DNA of 64,000 nucleotides from Vibrio bivalvicida. GTDB taxonomy: Bacteria; Pseudomonadota; Gammaproteobacteria; Enterobacterales; Vibrionaceae. A program made the position numbers and the translations under genes. Under the pieces are notes generated by a model. The model saw only the letters and a list, made by a program, of their open reading frames with translations, had not been told where the DNA came from and did not search any database. This document shows positions 12,737 to 19,364 of this stretch, piece after piece. Every line of letters begins with the position of its first letter. Position 1 is the stretch's first letter. The DNA lies in contig NZ_LLEI02000053.1 of assembly GCF_001399455.2 (NCBI RefSeq), positions 168,241 through 232,240 of the forward strand, given 5' to 3'.

Positions 12737-15700
12737 TTGAATAAGTTTATAATGTTGCTTCTTTTGCTCCTACATACCGGAGTATCTTTAGCTGCAAATA
12801 CTTCGCCTAAGTTGTTTTACCCTTTGCCAACCTTAGCGCAAGGAAAAATTTTCGCGGCGAAGCAGTTATTCTTGGCTGATGATGGCGGCATTTGGTTTCA
12901 AGATGTGCGAGACCAAGTCCTTTTTTTTGATGGTCAACATATTCTTCCTGAGAAAGGCTCTGCACTTGATCACGAAGCCTCACATATCGCTTTTCTAGAC
13001 AATGCATTCTGGTCATTCTTCCAAAACGAAATCTACCGCACTGTTCCTAATCAAGAAAAAGAGTTGGTGTTTAGTCTAACGCCCGGAACCGAGATTTTAA
13101 GAATTGGTTCATCGAAGCGTTATATTTGGGTGTCAGATGAAAGGAATTTTTATACTTATCATATCGATACCGGAGAATTTCAAACCTTCTCTTTAATGGT
13201 GCTGTATCAATATAATCAATCGTCGCAAATTACGATTAATGATGCCAAATTCATTCTATCTAAATGGGTAGTAGCGACGAATGCGGGGGTGTACTTATCT
13301 GATGGTGAGCAGTTTGAACACGTTCCAAGCTCCGGGAAAAATTATGTTGAGAAACTCTATTTTTCTGAAAAACGTCGAGAGTTGATTGTTGGCTCTTTGA
13401 ACGGGGCACTGATTTTTAATATCCAAAAGCCTCAGAAACCGATAAGAACCATTTCGGGTAGTCATGTTTTAAGTATCACAGAAACAAGCCAAGAGTACTG
13501 GATTGGAACAGAAAAAGGCTTATACGTTTATACCTTTTTGACAGGAGAAACTCAGAAATTTGAACATGGGATTGGTGCTGGAAACAGTCTTGCTGGGGAA
13601 AAGATCTATTCGTTACTTAATGACAATACAGGTGGTATTTGGGTTGCAACAGATCGAGGGGTGAGGTACTTCTCACTCTATTCGCATAAATTCACCCGCT
13701 ACTCCAATGAAGCTATGTCGCTCCTTAGTCGCGGGGAGAAAACACTCGAGATCTATCGAAGTAAAGGGCAAGACGGATACTGGTTGCTGACCAACAAAGG
13801 AGTCTTTCGCCTTAACTTACTCAATTTGGCGTCACGTCAGCAACTATATAGAGGGAATGTTTATGACCTGGAAGAACGCGACGGTGTACTGTGGTTAGCG
13901 ACTGATGATGGAGTCGTGTGTGTGAATGCAGATACTGGGGAAGTGATCGATGATGACCTACCAAACTTTCTGAAAACGACCAAGGTTAGATTTATTGAGT
14001 TCGATCACCATCAAATGTTGTGGGGGGCGAGTGAGACTGAGCTTTGGAGTTACCAACCCGGTAGTCGCAAACTGACTCAGTACGGTTCTGATTGGATGAT
14101 CGACAAGTATTTACCCGCTCAGTTAACGCATATGCATGTGACTTCTCAAGACTATGTGATGTTGGGGACAGAACATGGTATGTACATGGTGCAGGACGGG
14201 CAAATTAGCTTTGTTGGAGAGAGTATTCCCTATGGTGAAGTCATCGATACTGCGCAAGTTTCAGAACAAGAGCTTTGGGTGGCAAGTCGTTATGGATTGT
14301 ATCGTCTAGACCTTGATAAAAATAGAGTTGAGCCGATCGATATGGTCGATGGGCACGTGACGCCAAAATGCTTAATCAAAAACCAAGATGGTATCTGGTT
14401 GACTTCGTCCACAGGGCTATCACGTTACTCATCAAACGGTGCACTTAGTCAGCACTATGGAGAGCCTTTCGGGGTGATTAGTAACGAGTTTCTTTCTGGT
14501 GTATGCAGCTTTGGGAGTGACAGTGAACGAACAATTCTGTTGGGAGCAAAAAGTAGCTTGGTTAAAGTCAACACTCAGCAGCTTGTTGTGAGTCGCTTAC
14601 CTGATACACGGGTAATATTTAGCCAGATAAAACATAACCAAAAGCTATTTTCATTAGCCAATACACTAAAGCAGACTCCAGAGATTGGTTATGGCGAGTC
14701 GATTTTCTTCCAGTTTGGTTTTCTTCCCAGTTCAAGCAACATTAATCTTGAGTATCGACTAAACCAAAGCAGCGAGTGGCAAGTATTAGAGGGGAGCACA
14801 TTGACCATAGAACACCTTATGCCAGGAGAGTATCAGCTTGAGGTGCGTCCAATAAGACACAATCGAGTAAAAGGTGACAGCAATAGCTACCATTTTGTGG
14901 TGACAGAACCTTGGTTTTTAAGCCATGTCGCTTTTGCCATTTATATATTGGCGATTCTGATCATTATCGCGATCATTGTTTATTGGCGCTCTCGGTTGAT
15001 GGCAAAGTCAAACCGTGTGCTTAAGGCTCAAGTGGCACTAAAAACCAACCAGTTACGTCATCAAAGTAGAGTGTTGCTAGGTAATAACAACCAGTTACGT
15101 AAACAGCTTCAAGTACGTTGGTTGATCTACAGCCAGTCTATCAGTGGTCTAAAAGAACGGCTCAAAGTCGTGGGCTCTAAAGAACTCGCCCCGGAACAGC
15201 TAGTTGACTATGTACAACGAGAGTTAGAGATGTTGGTCAATGTAAGGTCTACCAATGGACAAGCGTTACCCGTTTTTAATCTAACCATGATATTGCATTC
15301 GGTTATCAGTAGCTGGAAAGATGAGTTGGCTAAAGTGGGAGTCAATGTCACTTTTGAATCGGACACAGAGCTACATATATGCCTGACTGATTTTAATCTT
15401 GATGAGATCTTCAACCTGGTGTTTGACGGCATTCTACGTCGTTGTTACCGCAATCAAACCGTTGTAATTCAACTTACCCAAGCAGAAGGTAAAGTTACGT
15501 TTTCTATGCTCGATCAAGGCGATGCCTTTGACGCAAGTACAGCTAGCGCTAGCTCCTCGGAAAACTTGCATGAGCTCGTTGCACAAAGTGGTGGCGAGAT
15601 GAGTGTGTTCAGTTCAGATGAGAGAAATTTACTGGAGATTAGTTGGCAAGAAAGTGTGTCATTTGAACGTAGCCCTGTTGTAATGTTAGATGAGGAAGAT

Positions 15701-16045
15701 GGGGCTGACTTAGTGCAAGATGATCCTTGGCTTTCAAGAGTGGTGAAAGTGGTTGAATTGAACTACACAGATCCTGACTTTGGTACTTCATCTGCAGCCA
15801 AGATGCTTTACGTTTCTGAGCGTAGTCTACAGCGACGATTTAAATCGTCGGTAGAGAAAACTTTTACTGAGTATTTGACTGAAGTGCGCTTAGATAATGC
15901 TTGCCGACGCTTGCTGGCCGGAGAGAAGGTGTCGGACGTTGCCTTTGAATGTGGCTTCAATGATCCATCTTACTTTAGCCAAAGGTTTAGACATCGCTTT
16001 GGTATGTCACCGACGCAGTTTGTTGAACAACAAGGCGATTATTAG
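12737..16045 (+). CDS. tfoS: Membrane-bound AraC-type regulator, TfoS-like (chitin/competence)
   Basis: A 1102-residue one-component regulator. Domains in order: signal peptide (1-20); periplasmic beta-propeller repeats of the two-component-regulator type (about 40-630; motifs like GGIWVATDRGVRYF); a Y_Y_Y domain (about 645-720); one membrane helix (730-750); a cytoplasmic region resembling a histidine-kinase ATPase fold that lacks a recognisable H-box and has a broken N-box (near 886); and a C-terminal AraC DNA-binding domain (about 995-1100; VSDVAFECGFNDPSYFSQRFRHRFG). The size, layout and place between znuA and feoA match Vibrio cholerae TfoS, which activates the small RNA tfoR in response to chitin (established). 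The start is probably TTG at 12737, which gives a basic N-terminus; ATG 12752 is an alternative. Confidence 0.85.
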   Translation: MNKFIMLLLLLLHTGVSLAANTSPKLFYPLPTLAQGKIFAAKQLFLADDGGIWFQDVRDQVLFFDGQHILPEKGSALDHEASHIAFLDNAFWSFFQNEIYRTVPNQEKELVFSLTPGTEILRIGSSKRYIWVSDERNFYTYHIDTGEFQTFSLMVLYQYNQSSQITINDAKFILSKWVVATNAGVYLSDGEQFEHVPSSGKNYVEKLYFSEKRRELIVGSLNGALIFNIQKPQKPIRTISGSHVLSITETSQEYWIGTEKGLYVYTFLTGETQKFEHGIGAGNSLAGEKIYSLLNDNTGGIWVATDRGVRYFSLYSHKFTRYSNEAMSLLSRGEKTLEIYRSKGQDGYWLLTNKGVFRLNLLNLASRQQLYRGNVYDLEERDGVLWLATDDGVVCVNADTGEVIDDDLPNFLKTTKVRFIEFDHHQMLWGASETELWSYQPGSRKLTQYGSDWMIDKYLPAQLTHMHVTSQDYVMLGTEHGMYMVQDGQISFVGESIPYGEVIDTAQVSEQELWVASRYGLYRLDLDKNRVEPIDMVDGHVTPKCLIKNQDGIWLTSSTGLSRYSSNGALSQHYGEPFGVISNEFLSGVCSFGSDSERTILLGAKSSLVKVNTQQLVVSRLPDTRVIFSQIKHNQKLFSLANTLKQTPEIGYGESIFFQFGFLPSSSNINLEYRLNQSSEWQVLEGSTLTIEHLMPGEYQLEVRPIRHNRVKGDSNSYHFVVTEPWFLSHVAFAIYILAILIIIAIIVYWRSRLMAKSNRVLKAQVALKTNQLRHQSRVLLGNNNQLRKQLQVRWLIYSQSISGLKERLKVVGSKELAPEQLVDYVQRELEMLVNVRSTNGQALPVFNLTMILHSVISSWKDELAKVGVNVTFESDTELHICLTDFNLDEIFNLVFDGILRRCYRNQTVVIQLTQAEGKVTFSMLDQGDAFDASTASASSSENLHELVAQSGGEMSVFSSDERNLLEISWQESVSFERSPVVMLDEEDGADLVQDDPWLSRVVKVVELNYTDPDFGTSSAAKMLYVSERSLQRRFKSSVEKTFTEYLTEVRLDNACRRLLAGEKVSDVAFECGFNDPSYFSQRFRHRFGMSPTQFVEQQGDY

Positions 16046-16267: not shown

Positions 16268-16398
16268 AAAAAAATGTCGTGGTATAGTCGGGGAGACTAT
16301 ACCACGGGTGTCAATGACACCTTCGCTTGCTGCCGGAGTGACGCTGATGCGTCACCTCTGGAATTTTAATGTCGTCTTAAGGGCGTTCCCTCTTGACG
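16268..16398 (-). ncRNA. Candidate small RNA, possible tfoR homologue
   Basis: The minus strand carries a strong orphan terminator: 12-bp perfect stem CGTGGTATAGTC/GACTATACCACG (plus-strand 16278-16306), then ACA and seven T residues (16274 down to 16268). No minus-strand gene lies upstream. Two more hairpins (16307-16321 and 16338-16355) precede it, separated by a likely single-stranded segment (16322-16337). A -10-like TATAGT at 16410-16405 without a good -35 fits an activator-dependent promoter, with a start near 16398. The 5' end is uncertain. The place next to tfoS suggests TfoR, but I have not confirmed this by sequence comparison. Confidence 0.42.
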
Positions 16399-16822
16399 TG
16401 ATTAACTATAGCGAGGTGGACTTTTTTTACTTATAAAATTAACGCCAAGGTGACATAAGAAAAGCGACACTTAATTAAGTATATGTTTTATTTGAACTAA
16501 TTTGTTTGCTTGATATTCAGTTGAGTGATTGTTGGGTCGAGCTGATAACTGGATAAGTCTTTTTTGACGAAATTGACGAGTATTGTTTTGACGTTTTTAG
16601 AGCAGGGCCTGTGGAGCGATATCTCTACCAATTGTGCTAGTAATCGCAAGAGCTGTTGCTTCAATATCTGCCTATATCACATCACCCCATCTTTACGCTC
16701 ATACTCCACTTATATATCGCTTCTTTTAGTAACCAGTTACTGACCCCGATTTTCTCGAAACATGAAAACATTGATTTCAGGCAAGATCTGTTAAAACAAT
16801 TGAAGATAGAATTGTAAGCACA

Positions 16823-16841
16823 AATGAAAATATTTCTCATT
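16823..16841 (+). promoter_or_regulatory. Fur box upstream of feoA
   Basis: AATGAAAATATTTCTCATT fits the 7-1-7 Fur pattern (TGATAATnATTATCA) at 11 of 14 half-site positions. It lies 14-38 bp before the feoA start codons, a repression position. Confidence 0.72.
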
Positions 16842-16854
16842 ACAAATAACTGGT

Positions 16855-17088
16855 ATGATAATGAAACTCTCACAACTACAACAGGGACAAGGTGCGACCA
16901 TCACTGGGCTTTCTGAGCTCTCTACGGATGTGCGTAAAAAATTGATGGTTATGGGGCTTCTGCCGCAAACACCTGTCACATTAATTCGAAAAGCACCGAT
17001 GGGAGACCCACTCCAAGTAGAAGTTCGCGGGGTTTCGCTAGCAGTACGTGTCAATATTGCTGATGCAATTACAGTGGAGGCAAACTGA
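16855..17088 (+). CDS. feoA: Ferrous iron transport protein A
   Basis: Small SH3-like cytoplasmic partner of the FeoB iron(II) transporter. The product is 77 residues from ATG 16855, or 75 from the in-frame ATG 16861 (MKLSQLQQGQGATITGL); neither has a clear ribosome site, so the start is uncertain. The C-terminal VRGVSLAVRVNIADAITVE is typical of FeoA. Its TGA overlaps the feoB ATG by one base. Confidence 0.93.
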   Translation: MIMKLSQLQQGQGATITGLSELSTDVRKKLMVMGLLPQTPVTLIRKAPMGDPLQVEVRGVSLAVRVNIADAITVEAN

Positions 17089-19364
17089 TGGAATACAAGA
17101 TTCTTACGGTAGGTAATCCAAATAGCGGTAAAACAACGCTTTTTAACGGACTCACTGGTGCCAAGCAACAGGTAGGTAACTGGGCGGGCGTTACCGTCGA
17201 GAAAAAAACAGGTAAGTACTCACATTCTAGCGACGACTTTTTACTTACCGATCTGCCAGGTATTTACGCTTTAGACAGCGGCAATGATGGAAACAGTATC
17301 GATGAGTCTATCGCTTCTAGGGCTGTGCTGACTCATCCTGCTGATTTGATCATCAACGTAGTCGATGCGACTTGTCTTGAGCGTAGTCTCTATATGACGT
17401 TGCAGTTGCGTGAACTTGGTCGTCCTATGGTTGTTGTACTCAACAAGATGGATGCCCTAAAACGTGAACGCCAAACCATCGATATTAAAGCTTTGGAAAA
17501 AGTGCTTGGTTGCCCAGTTATGGCTATCTCGGCCAACAACAATTCTCAAGTTCAGGCATTTAAAGAGCGTTTACATAAAACGCTTGTACAAGGTGTTGCA
17601 CTGGATGAACTGCGCCTTAATTATGGTCAAGAATTTGAATCAGCAATTGAACAAGTACAGCCACTATTTGCAGATCATTCAGAGGTTGCTAAGCGTGCTT
17701 TGGCGATTCGCGCACTTGAAAATGATGTGTTGGTACTGAACTCTCTATCTCAACAGCCACGTACAATGGCGCTAGCTGCACAACGCAATGTAGAGCTAGA
17801 CGTTGATTTGCTTGTCGCTGATGTCAAATATACGTTTTTGCACGAACAGTGTAAGAAGGTACGCCGCTCAGAAGGTAAACTCAGTCACAGCTTCACAGAG
17901 AAGGTTGACGCTATCATCCTAAACAAATGGGTGGGTGTACCGTTTTTCTTTGTTGTAATGTATTTGATGTTTATGTTCTCGATCAACATTGGCAGTGCCT
18001 TTATCGACTTTTTCGATATTGGTGTTGGTGCTCTGCTGGTTGATGGCGGTCACTACTTGTTAGACGATCACCTTCCTGTTTGGCTGGTGACACTGTTAGC
18101 TGATGGTGTCGGTGGCGGTATCCAAACTGTTGCGACATTTATTCCCGTCATTGCATGTCTATACCTATTCTTAGCATTACTAGAAAGCTCGGGCTATATG
18201 TCTCGCGCTGCGTTTGTATTGGACAAGGTCATGCAAAAAATTGGCTTACCAGGAAAAGCGTTCGTTCCGCTAGTGTTAGGCTTTGGTTGTAACGTACCTT
18301 CTATTATGGCCACCCGCACACTCGATCAGGAGCGTGAACGCAAATTAGCGGCCTCGATGGCGCCATTTATGTCATGTGGTGCTCGTTTACCCGTTTATGC
18401 TTTGTTCGCTGCTGCATTCTTCCCTCAAAGTGGTCAGAACATTGTATTCTCACTTTACCTGCTAGGTATTGTTGCCGCAGTGTTCACTGGTTTGGTACTT
18501 AAGAAGACACTTTACCCAGGTTCAAGTGATAGCTTGGTGATGGAAATGCCGGACTATGAACTACCGACGATTCGTAATATCGTGATTAAAACATGGCAGA
18601 AATTAAAGCGCTTTGTTTTAGGGGCGGGTAAAACGATCGTGGTTGTTGTTACTATTCTTAGCTTCCTAAACTCTGTAGGTACAGATGGTTCATTTGGCAA
18701 CCAAGACAGCGAAAACTCAGTGTTATCAAAAGCATCACAAATCGTGACGCCTGTCTTTGCTCCTATTGGTATCCAAGAAGACAACTGGCCTGCAACAGTA
18801 GGTATTATCACTGGTATTTTTGCGAAAGAAGCCGTAGTGGGTACATTGAATAGTTTGTACGCACCAAGTGAAGAGGAAGGCGGCGAGTACGATCTGATGG
18901 GAAGTCTAGAAGAGGCGGTGATGTCTATTCCAGACAATCTAGCAGGGCTTAGTTATTCCGATCCACTTGGTATTGAAGTGGGCGATCTTTCTGACAGCCA
19001 AGCGGTAGCAGAAGAGCAAGAAGTTGATGCTTCAATCTTTGGTAACCTAAAAGGATATTTTGCTTCCAGCAATGCGGCATTTGCCTACCTAATCTTTATA
19101 TTGCTGTACACGCCTTGTGTGGCCGCTATGGGGGCCTATGTGCGTGAATTTGGTCAGAAATACGCACGCTTTATCGCGGTATGGACTATGGGGCTGGCAT
19201 ACGGAAGCGCAGCCTTATACTACCAAGTGACGCACTTTACTGATCACCCTGCGTCAAGTTCGGCGTGGATTGCTGGTATTTTGTTGGTGAGCTTTGCGAC
19301 ATACAGAGTGCTTAAATCTGTCGGTACCAAACAAAATCAAACGCTAGAGGTACAAGTTGCATGA
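17088..19364 (+). CDS. feoB: Ferrous iron transporter FeoB
   Basis: GTP-hydrolysing inner-membrane iron(II) permease used mainly in anoxic or acidic conditions. The 758-residue product has an N-terminal G domain with G1 GNPNSGKTT (residues 9-17), G3 DLPGIY and G4 NKMD, then a helical regulator domain. The membrane region has the conserved FeoB core motif GCNVPSIMATRT and Gate repeats. It is coupled to feoA (one-base overlap) and to feoC (ATGA overlap). The operon should be Fur-regulated. Confidence 0.97.
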   Translation: MEYKILTVGNPNSGKTTLFNGLTGAKQQVGNWAGVTVEKKTGKYSHSSDDFLLTDLPGIYALDSGNDGNSIDESIASRAVLTHPADLIINVVDATCLERSLYMTLQLRELGRPMVVVLNKMDALKRERQTIDIKALEKVLGCPVMAISANNNSQVQAFKERLHKTLVQGVALDELRLNYGQEFESAIEQVQPLFADHSEVAKRALAIRALENDVLVLNSLSQQPRTMALAAQRNVELDVDLLVADVKYTFLHEQCKKVRRSEGKLSHSFTEKVDAIILNKWVGVPFFFVVMYLMFMFSINIGSAFIDFFDIGVGALLVDGGHYLLDDHLPVWLVTLLADGVGGGIQTVATFIPVIACLYLFLALLESSGYMSRAAFVLDKVMQKIGLPGKAFVPLVLGFGCNVPSIMATRTLDQERERKLAASMAPFMSCGARLPVYALFAAAFFPQSGQNIVFSLYLLGIVAAVFTGLVLKKTLYPGSSDSLVMEMPDYELPTIRNIVIKTWQKLKRFVLGAGKTIVVVVTILSFLNSVGTDGSFGNQDSENSVLSKASQIVTPVFAPIGIQEDNWPATVGIITGIFAKEAVVGTLNSLYAPSEEEGGEYDLMGSLEEAVMSIPDNLAGLSYSDPLGIEVGDLSDSQAVAEEQEVDASIFGNLKGYFASSNAAFAYLIFILLYTPCVAAMGAYVREFGQKYARFIAVWTMGLAYGSAALYYQVTHFTDHPASSSAWIAGILLVSFATYRVLKSVGTKQNQTLEVQVA

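Follow-up and report, generated by a model that had tools for sequence, protein, structure and literature searches.

The small RNA gene tfoR occupies the 809-bp gap between tfoS and feoA in Vibrio bivalvicida, on the strand opposite to both genes. TfoR is a chitin-induced RNA that permits synthesis of TfoX, the master regulator of DNA uptake. Comparative sequence evidence, comprised of a covariance-model match, presence in a single copy, covariation, and complementarity to the local tfoX leader, identifies the locus as tfoR. The explanation that accommodates these observations jointly, to which we assign a probability of about 0.9, includes a tfoR locus with a TfoS/ChiS promoter, an RNA of ~131 nt that is trimmed, pairing with tfoX, and a possible contact with rpoS. 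It is an already known sRNA at its known place, and the refinements presented here are modest.

Identification and genomic context of tfoR

In an Rfam search of the window (the whole 64-kb stretch of DNA analysed), tfoR (RF02100) was the sole match above the curated cut-off, and no other Rfam family was reported at the locus. The match covers the entire model (positions 1-101 of 101) on the minus strand and scores 104 bits, compared with the gathering score of 70. The sequence-only reading had guessed this identity from the neighbourhood, a tfoR elsewhere in the genome counting against it; a genome-wide search gave this copy only, and the guess is borne out by the model, covariation and tfoX leader complementarity. 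Features of the locus are listed in Table 1.

Table 1. Features of the tfoR locus and adjacent genes, with positions in the window.
Feature	Position	Strand	Basis
tfoS, beta-propeller sensor carrying an AraC-type domain for DNA binding	12737..16045	+	Pfam Reg_prop, HTH_18, HTH_AraC
tfoR, mature sRNA, 97 nt	16268..16364	-	RF02100 boundaries, fold z -7.3, covariation
Intrinsic terminator: 12-bp stem, loop UCCCC, U7	16268..16306	-	Covariation, fold, terminator scan
Hairpin 2, GGUGUC-AUU-GACACC	16307..16321	-	Rfam alignment, covariation, fold
Near-invariant core CCGGCAGCAAGCGAAGG, tfoX leader seed	16320..16336	-	Conservation, duplex -18.3 kcal/mol
Hairpin 1, sequence variable, pairing conserved	16337..16356	-	8/8 pairs changed on both sides, 93.4% of cells paired (55 sequences)
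5' CCAGA, complementary to tfoX leader UCUGG	16357..16361	-	Co-fold with local leader
Leader hairpin ahead of the Rfam 5' boundary; probable primary start near 16398	16373..16398	-	Fold, z, half-swaps
-10 element TATAGT (probable)	16405..16410	-	74/92 distinct upstream sequences; fixed spacing to repeats
Promoter-proximal repeat with conserved TGGCGTTAATTTTATAAG, close to the -35 region; probable TfoS site	16430..16447	-	
Distal repeat TGTCGC, probable second half of TfoS site	16464..16469	-	22 bp from proximal repeat
feoA, conserved neighbour across the gap	16855..17088	+	Pfam FeoA 73 bits, synteny

Coordinates of the two genes confirm the length of the gap proposed earlier. The nearest relative of TfoS was found in V. 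europaeus (83%), followed by those in V. galatheae and V. tubiashii (73%). A Pfam family was looked for in the 63-aa minus-strand ORF at 16682-16873 and none was found; a second minus-strand ORF, of 125 aa (16791-17168), is antisense to feoA.

ChiX, which is not known to be related to tfoR, represses genes for chitin uptake. Common to both is the connection with chitin, as ChiX of E. coli and Salmonella is described as an sRNA of chitin utilisation (PMC4098024). The RNA described here resembles V. cholerae TfoR (RF02100) in that the whole model, the three helices and the core are all matched, while its hairpin 1 is shorter than that of the model by 4 positions. Its 5' end, CCAGA, differs from CCUGAU in five genomes presumed to be V. 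cholerae-like. With regard to gene neighbourhood, we take VC2078 and VC2080 of V. cholerae to be feoA and tfoS. Given these identities, the arrangement matches that of V. cholerae TfoR, whose flanking genes are named VC2078 and VC2080 in PMC8545128.

RNA structure and covariation

From 5' to 3', mature tfoR consists of AUUCCAGA, hairpin 1, core, hairpin 2, and terminator, with 16322-16336 as the core segment between the hairpins. Its fold of -42.2 kcal/mol is to be compared with the shuffled mean of -20.3, and none of 200 shuffles was as good. The terminator stem is perfect (16295-16306 with 16278-16289), encloses the loop TCCCC, and continues into ACA and seven T residues at 16268-16274 of the minus strand. 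This stem with its T-run, as well as two further hairpins ahead of it, had been recognized in the sequence alone and are confirmed. A consensus scan of the gap disclosed a single terminator, a result that is weak by itself because shuffled sequences average 0.6. The inter-hairpin stretch, previously proposed to be single-stranded at 16322-16337, is indeed unpaired in the Rfam alignment. The fold predicted for the RNA alone agrees in part, leaving 16322-16332 free and pairing GG of the core (16333-16334) with CC of the 5' end (16360-16361).

Covariation was assessed in an alignment of 55 rows, hand-picked out of 86 distinct sequences, in which 98.0% of 1416 cells are paired and GCAGCAAGC is invariant. 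Compensatory changes were found in all three helices, and two-sided changes affect 18 of 26 pairs (8/8 in hairpin 1, 3/6 in hairpin 2, and 7/12 in the terminator). In 500 shuffles, the observed value was not reached on any of five measures, with relatedness incompletely corrected. When the alignment was slid by 1-3 columns, only 24-50% of cells remained paired.

Promoter and upstream repeats

Alignment of upstream regions from 41 loci shows the conserved blocks TGTCG, TGGCGTTAATTTTATAAG, and TTATAGTTA. Among 92 distinct upstream sequences, TATAGT is present in 74 and another TATA[AT]T hexamer in 7, while the remaining 11 have neither, several of them carrying TATAAA. Two TGKCG repeats combined with a TATA box are found in 75 of 91 sequences, the pattern being missing in 16. 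The repeat period is 22 bp in 68 of these 75 sequences and 21 bp in the other 7; spacing of the proximal (second) repeat to the -10 is 37 bp in 74 of them and 38 bp in one. The distance between the -10 and the Rfam 5' end is, in contrast, variable, mostly 35-49 nt with outliers of 23, 23 and 109 nt; in V. bivalvicida itself TATAGT lies ~42 nt upstream of that end.

Because spacing to the repeats is fixed and distance to the Rfam end is not, the TATAGT hexamer at 16405-16410 is regarded as probably the true -10 element, and transcription would begin at about 16398. TATAGT was not listed in a sigma-70 scan in which a -35 is required. The earlier suggestion that TATAGT without a -35 fits activator dependence is supported by the conserved upstream repeats at constant distance. 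The paired repeats, separated by 22 bp and beginning 37 bp away from the -10 with the proximal copy, are the probable TfoS operator. This operator may already be in print, because the legend of Figure 3A in PMC11856585 lists a ChiS site, a TfoS site, -35, -10 and +1.

The 5' leader hairpin and a putative precursor

Addition of the 34-nt segment between the putative start and the Rfam boundary gives a 131-nt RNA with a fold of -54.4 kcal/mol (z -7.7). To characterize this leader, we kept loci whose end reads ATTCC and in which a TATA hexamer is found 30-60 nt upstream (83, of which 63 distinct), and dropped the others. Mean z of the 63 distinct leader segments is -2.54, with 43 below -2, while upstream control segments of equal length average -0.06, with none of 63 below -2.

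The MAFFT alignment of the leader was judged too poor for counting pairs, and halves of the hairpin were therefore swapped among sequences instead. Cognate halves average -8.06, compared with -4.64 in 2000 random re-pairings (lowest -5.60), and they outperform the median swap in every one of the 62 sequences compared, one of the 63 having been dropped for lack of a fold. Splitting segments at their own predicted loop biases this comparison toward cognate halves; the gap is 3.41 kcal/mol in real segments, 0.74 in shuffled ones (range 0.41-1.10 in 10 sets) and 0.32 in upstream ones (35 of 53 wins), and a fixed split at nt 14 gives a real gap of 3.46 with 61 of 63 wins. The innermost helices of the leader comprise 38 distinct forms in 62 sequences, which makes compensatory change the natural reading, though relatedness inflates the numbers.

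With a -10 located upstream and a hairpin kept by compensatory change, the primary tfoR transcript is probably ~131 nt long and trimmed to ~97 nt. This points to processing as the probable origin of the 5' boundary accepted for the family. The extent of 16268-16428 proposed in the sequence-only reading can be subdivided accordingly: the mature RNA covers 16268-16364, 16365-16398 is probably a 5' leader, and promoter elements reach further, to about 16469. Northern bands of V. cholerae TfoR are given as ~100 nt (major), ~130 nt and ~250 nt in PMC8545128. The major ~100-nt band and the minor one of ~130 nt would be consistent with forms of ~97 and ~131 nt, leaving the ~250-nt band unaccounted for. 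No description of a tfoR precursor hairpin was found among the titles and abstract openings searched, which does not prove that none exists.

Alternatively, tfoR may start at the Rfam 5' end, 16364, in which case the conserved TATAGT would be an untranscribed DNA element, as would the inverted repeat that follows it. The family is delimited at exactly that base, and the major V. cholerae band of ~100 nt (PMC8545128) is of suitable length. Nevertheless, the preceding 20 nt contain no conserved -10, the commonest hexamer there being found in 23 of 92 sequences, and TATAGT keeps its 37 bp from the repeats in 74 of 75 sequences while its distance to 16364 varies, mostly within 35-49 nt. In addition, the inverted repeat conserves pairing over sequence (38 helices in 62), a behaviour more RNA-like than that of a protein site. 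We consider a start at 16364 unlikely, and favour a longer primary transcript.

A second alternative concerns the plus strand, on which mutually exclusive pairings had been noticed; such hairpins could act as an attenuator or as a switch in the tfoS 3' UTR. The alternative pairing exists in V. bivalvicida, with a duplex of -11.6 kcal/mol and T7 after it. It is not conserved, as only 10 of 74 TATAG-box sequences reach -9 kcal/mol or lower (median -5.7), and its T-run is part of the conserved promoter block of the opposite strand. Moreover, the covariance model matches the minus strand, which also provides the U-tail. The pairing looks incidental, and a plus-strand switch is highly improbable compared with a minus-strand tfoR.

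Distribution and synteny

Matches to tfoR were obtained in 215 of 296 sampled Vibrionaceae genomes, 208 of them above the cut-off, and in none of 14 control genomes. For synteny, 86 loci were examined, 7 of which lack a recognised core. In 71 of the remaining 79, tfoS and feoA flank tfoR on the other strand; named loci and genomes partly overlap in species, and locus counts are not counts of independent species. In the other 8 loci, one or both neighbours were missing from the fetched stretch in tblastn searches. Two of the loci examined, L053 (V. aestivus) and L059 (V. mexicanus), have tfoR beside tfoS, while feoA is absent from the fetched stretch by tblastn; the gene on this side may differ from the usual neighbour.

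Using a cut-off of 1e-40 for TfoS, 161 of the sampled genus members have this protein, and tfoR is present in all 161. Matches to tfoR also occur in five genomes of the genus in which TfoS did not reach this cut-off, and these matches are all weak (32-36 bits). Outside the genus, agreement is less clean: in some genera with a tfoR match TfoS falls short of 1e-40, and in nine g8 genomes the TfoS search succeeded where that for tfoR gave no match.

An inert bidirectional terminator or a decayed repeat without regulatory role would be compatible with the structure by itself and with the degenerate remnants in the five TfoS-less genomes, but it is made very unlikely by a model match over the whole length, covariation in three helices, the near-invariant core, and the presence of tfoR in every sampled TfoS-bearing member of the genus.

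The weak matches in TfoS-less L132, L133, L134, L135 and L136 are positioned near 1501-1600, with feoA in the same stretch. The tfoX core is gone from L134 and L136, which still have a terminator stem with a C-rich loop; L132 retains the core-like AACAGCAAGCGTTGG. These matches look like relics, or RNAs retaining one of two functions.

Genome G224 has two tfoR matches on separate contigs (L118 and L138). Its second RNA, together with 130 nt upstream, is identical to that of G209 (L126), and contamination or recent transfer is possible. L063 (V. ostreicida) and L130 (genome G290) share a divergent core (TTTAGCAGCAAGCGTAGG) and a terminator loop without the C-run. G290 is nevertheless ordinary both in the sites of its tfoX leader and in its rpoS G-run.

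Predicted pairing with the tfoX leader

The V. bivalvicida genome contains two TfoX_N genes, of which L034 is taken as tfoX because its leader has the complementary sites. The other, L033, carries a long leader (~1230-1400) that resembles a cyclic-di-GMP riboswitch by eye, presumably as in tfoY.

When tfoR and the tfoX leader are co-folded, hairpin 1 stays intact between two contacts, one of CCAGA to UCUGG and the other of the core to UUCGCUU...UGCUGCU. The duplex of the core with the leader has -18.3 kcal/mol, compared with -10.7 in shuffled leaders, 4 of 500 being as good; the co-fold gain is -12.8 kcal/mol, compared with a shuffled mean of -6.9, and 4 of 200 shuffles were as good. Both values agree with the sequence-only reading, in which the inter-hairpin stretch was suggested as a possible seed and a prediction of pairing with the local tfoX leader was proposed as a check. 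The energy of the 5' piece is no better than chance, as 240 of 500 shuffled leaders were equally good.

Altogether 19 main-group leaders were aligned; energy and swap tests used 18 (G199 has the same leader as G195), and the opening test used 19. CUGCU and UCUGG are present in 19 of 19, and the UCUGG partner is located at -41 to -46 in all 18 examined for position. Unlike in V. bivalvicida, UCUGG is missing from tfoX leaders of the five presumed V. cholerae-like genomes, and in these the predicted tfoX contact is elsewhere or weak.

Co-evolution of tfoR and the tfoX leader was addressed by swaps between clades and was not supported, since pairing was not consistently weakened. Mean co-fold values of main-group tfoR are -9.0 with main leaders, -7.3 with V. 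cholerae-like leaders, and -8.1 with g11 leaders; those of V. cholerae-like tfoR are -7.1 with its own leaders, -7.8 with main leaders, and -9.7 with g11 leaders.

When main-group leaders are folded by themselves, positions -12 to +3 around the start are paired with a segment from -75 to -30 at a mean probability of 0.29-0.54, and this segment contains the sites complementary to tfoR. Opening of the start by tfoR was not predicted in nested co-folds computed without Hfq or ribosome, in which the mean unpaired probability is 0.26, compared with 0.25 for the leader alone (n = 19). The start became more open by 0.05 in none of the 19 main-group genomes, and less open in one, V. bivalvicida itself (0.22 compared with 0.28). 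It is no more open in the complex because it finds other partners within the 125-nt piece. In the co-fold of G227, the leader stem stays closed. As opening was not predicted in any of the 19, our confidence in the best explanation was lowered from 0.96 to 0.90. Given these folding results, translational activation rests on published work, and pairing on complementarity. Hfq-dependent activation of tfoX translation in V. cholerae is attributed to Yamamoto 2011 in citing passages.

Putative contact with rpoS

In V. cholerae, TfoR is reported to repress rpoS by way of a predicted duplex close to the start codon (PMC8545128). In V. bivalvicida, the co-fold of whole tfoR with rpoS gives -8.9, compared with -5.1 for shuffled sequences (9 of 200 as good). 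A 9-nt piece of the terminator loop reaches -13.4 kcal/mol with the rpoS start region, compared with -7.1, and 1 of 500 shuffles was as good. The site of contact is GGGGGAG of the ribosome site, the Shine-Dalgarno sequence in this genome.

We sought rpoS in 22 other genomes, leaving out sub-cut-off matches in G014 and G013 and also G260, in which no loop was read, so that the comparison includes 19 genomes in addition to V. bivalvicida. Among these 20, CCCC in the loop and GGGG in rpoS are both present in 15 and both absent in 3, while one has the loop motif only (G018) and one GGGG only (G290). Genomes with only GGG are all outside the genus of V. bivalvicida, and ancestry alone could therefore explain the association. 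Based on predicted pairing, the C-rich terminator loop may cover the rpoS ribosome-binding site.

Proposed mechanism and significance

In the proposed sequence of events, chitin would cause TfoS, together with ChiS, to act at the paired repeats upstream of TATAGT, and minus-strand transcription would begin near 16398. The RNA of ~131 nt would stop at the terminator at 16268 and would probably be trimmed to ~97 nt. Its 5' CCAGA and core GGCAGCAAGCGAA are predicted to base-pair within the tfoX leader, ahead of the start codon, and this pairing would remove the leader segment otherwise paired with the tfoX start region. TfoX would then be made and lead to competence, although opening of the start region is not supported by folding here. 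The C-rich terminator loop would possibly cover the rpoS ribosome-binding site. Action of TfoS and ChiS at the V. cholerae tfoR promoter is described in PMC11856585 and PMC13316777, and activation of tfoX is published for V. cholerae; further literature is cited as well (PMC7564644, PMC3380833, PMC3739930, PMC9732341, PMC6618264).

A more specific version of this scheme, in which a ~131-nt precursor with a fourth hairpin at its 5' end, fast-evolving yet conserved in pairing and omitted from Rfam, is cut to ~97 nt, and two seeds act in opposite directions, the core activating tfoX and the C-rich loop covering rpoS, stands in our estimation at even odds. If true, the 5' hairpin would be a control point of tfoR maturation or stability.

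Three refinements are worth keeping: the 5' leader hairpin with a promoter ~42 nt upstream of the Rfam end, the geometry of the repeats, and complementarity between the terminator loop and rpoS. They provide a probable geometry of the TfoS operator and a testable contact for the published repression of rpoS, and the chitin-to-competence circuit is extended to V. bivalvicida on evidence beyond gene neighbourhood.
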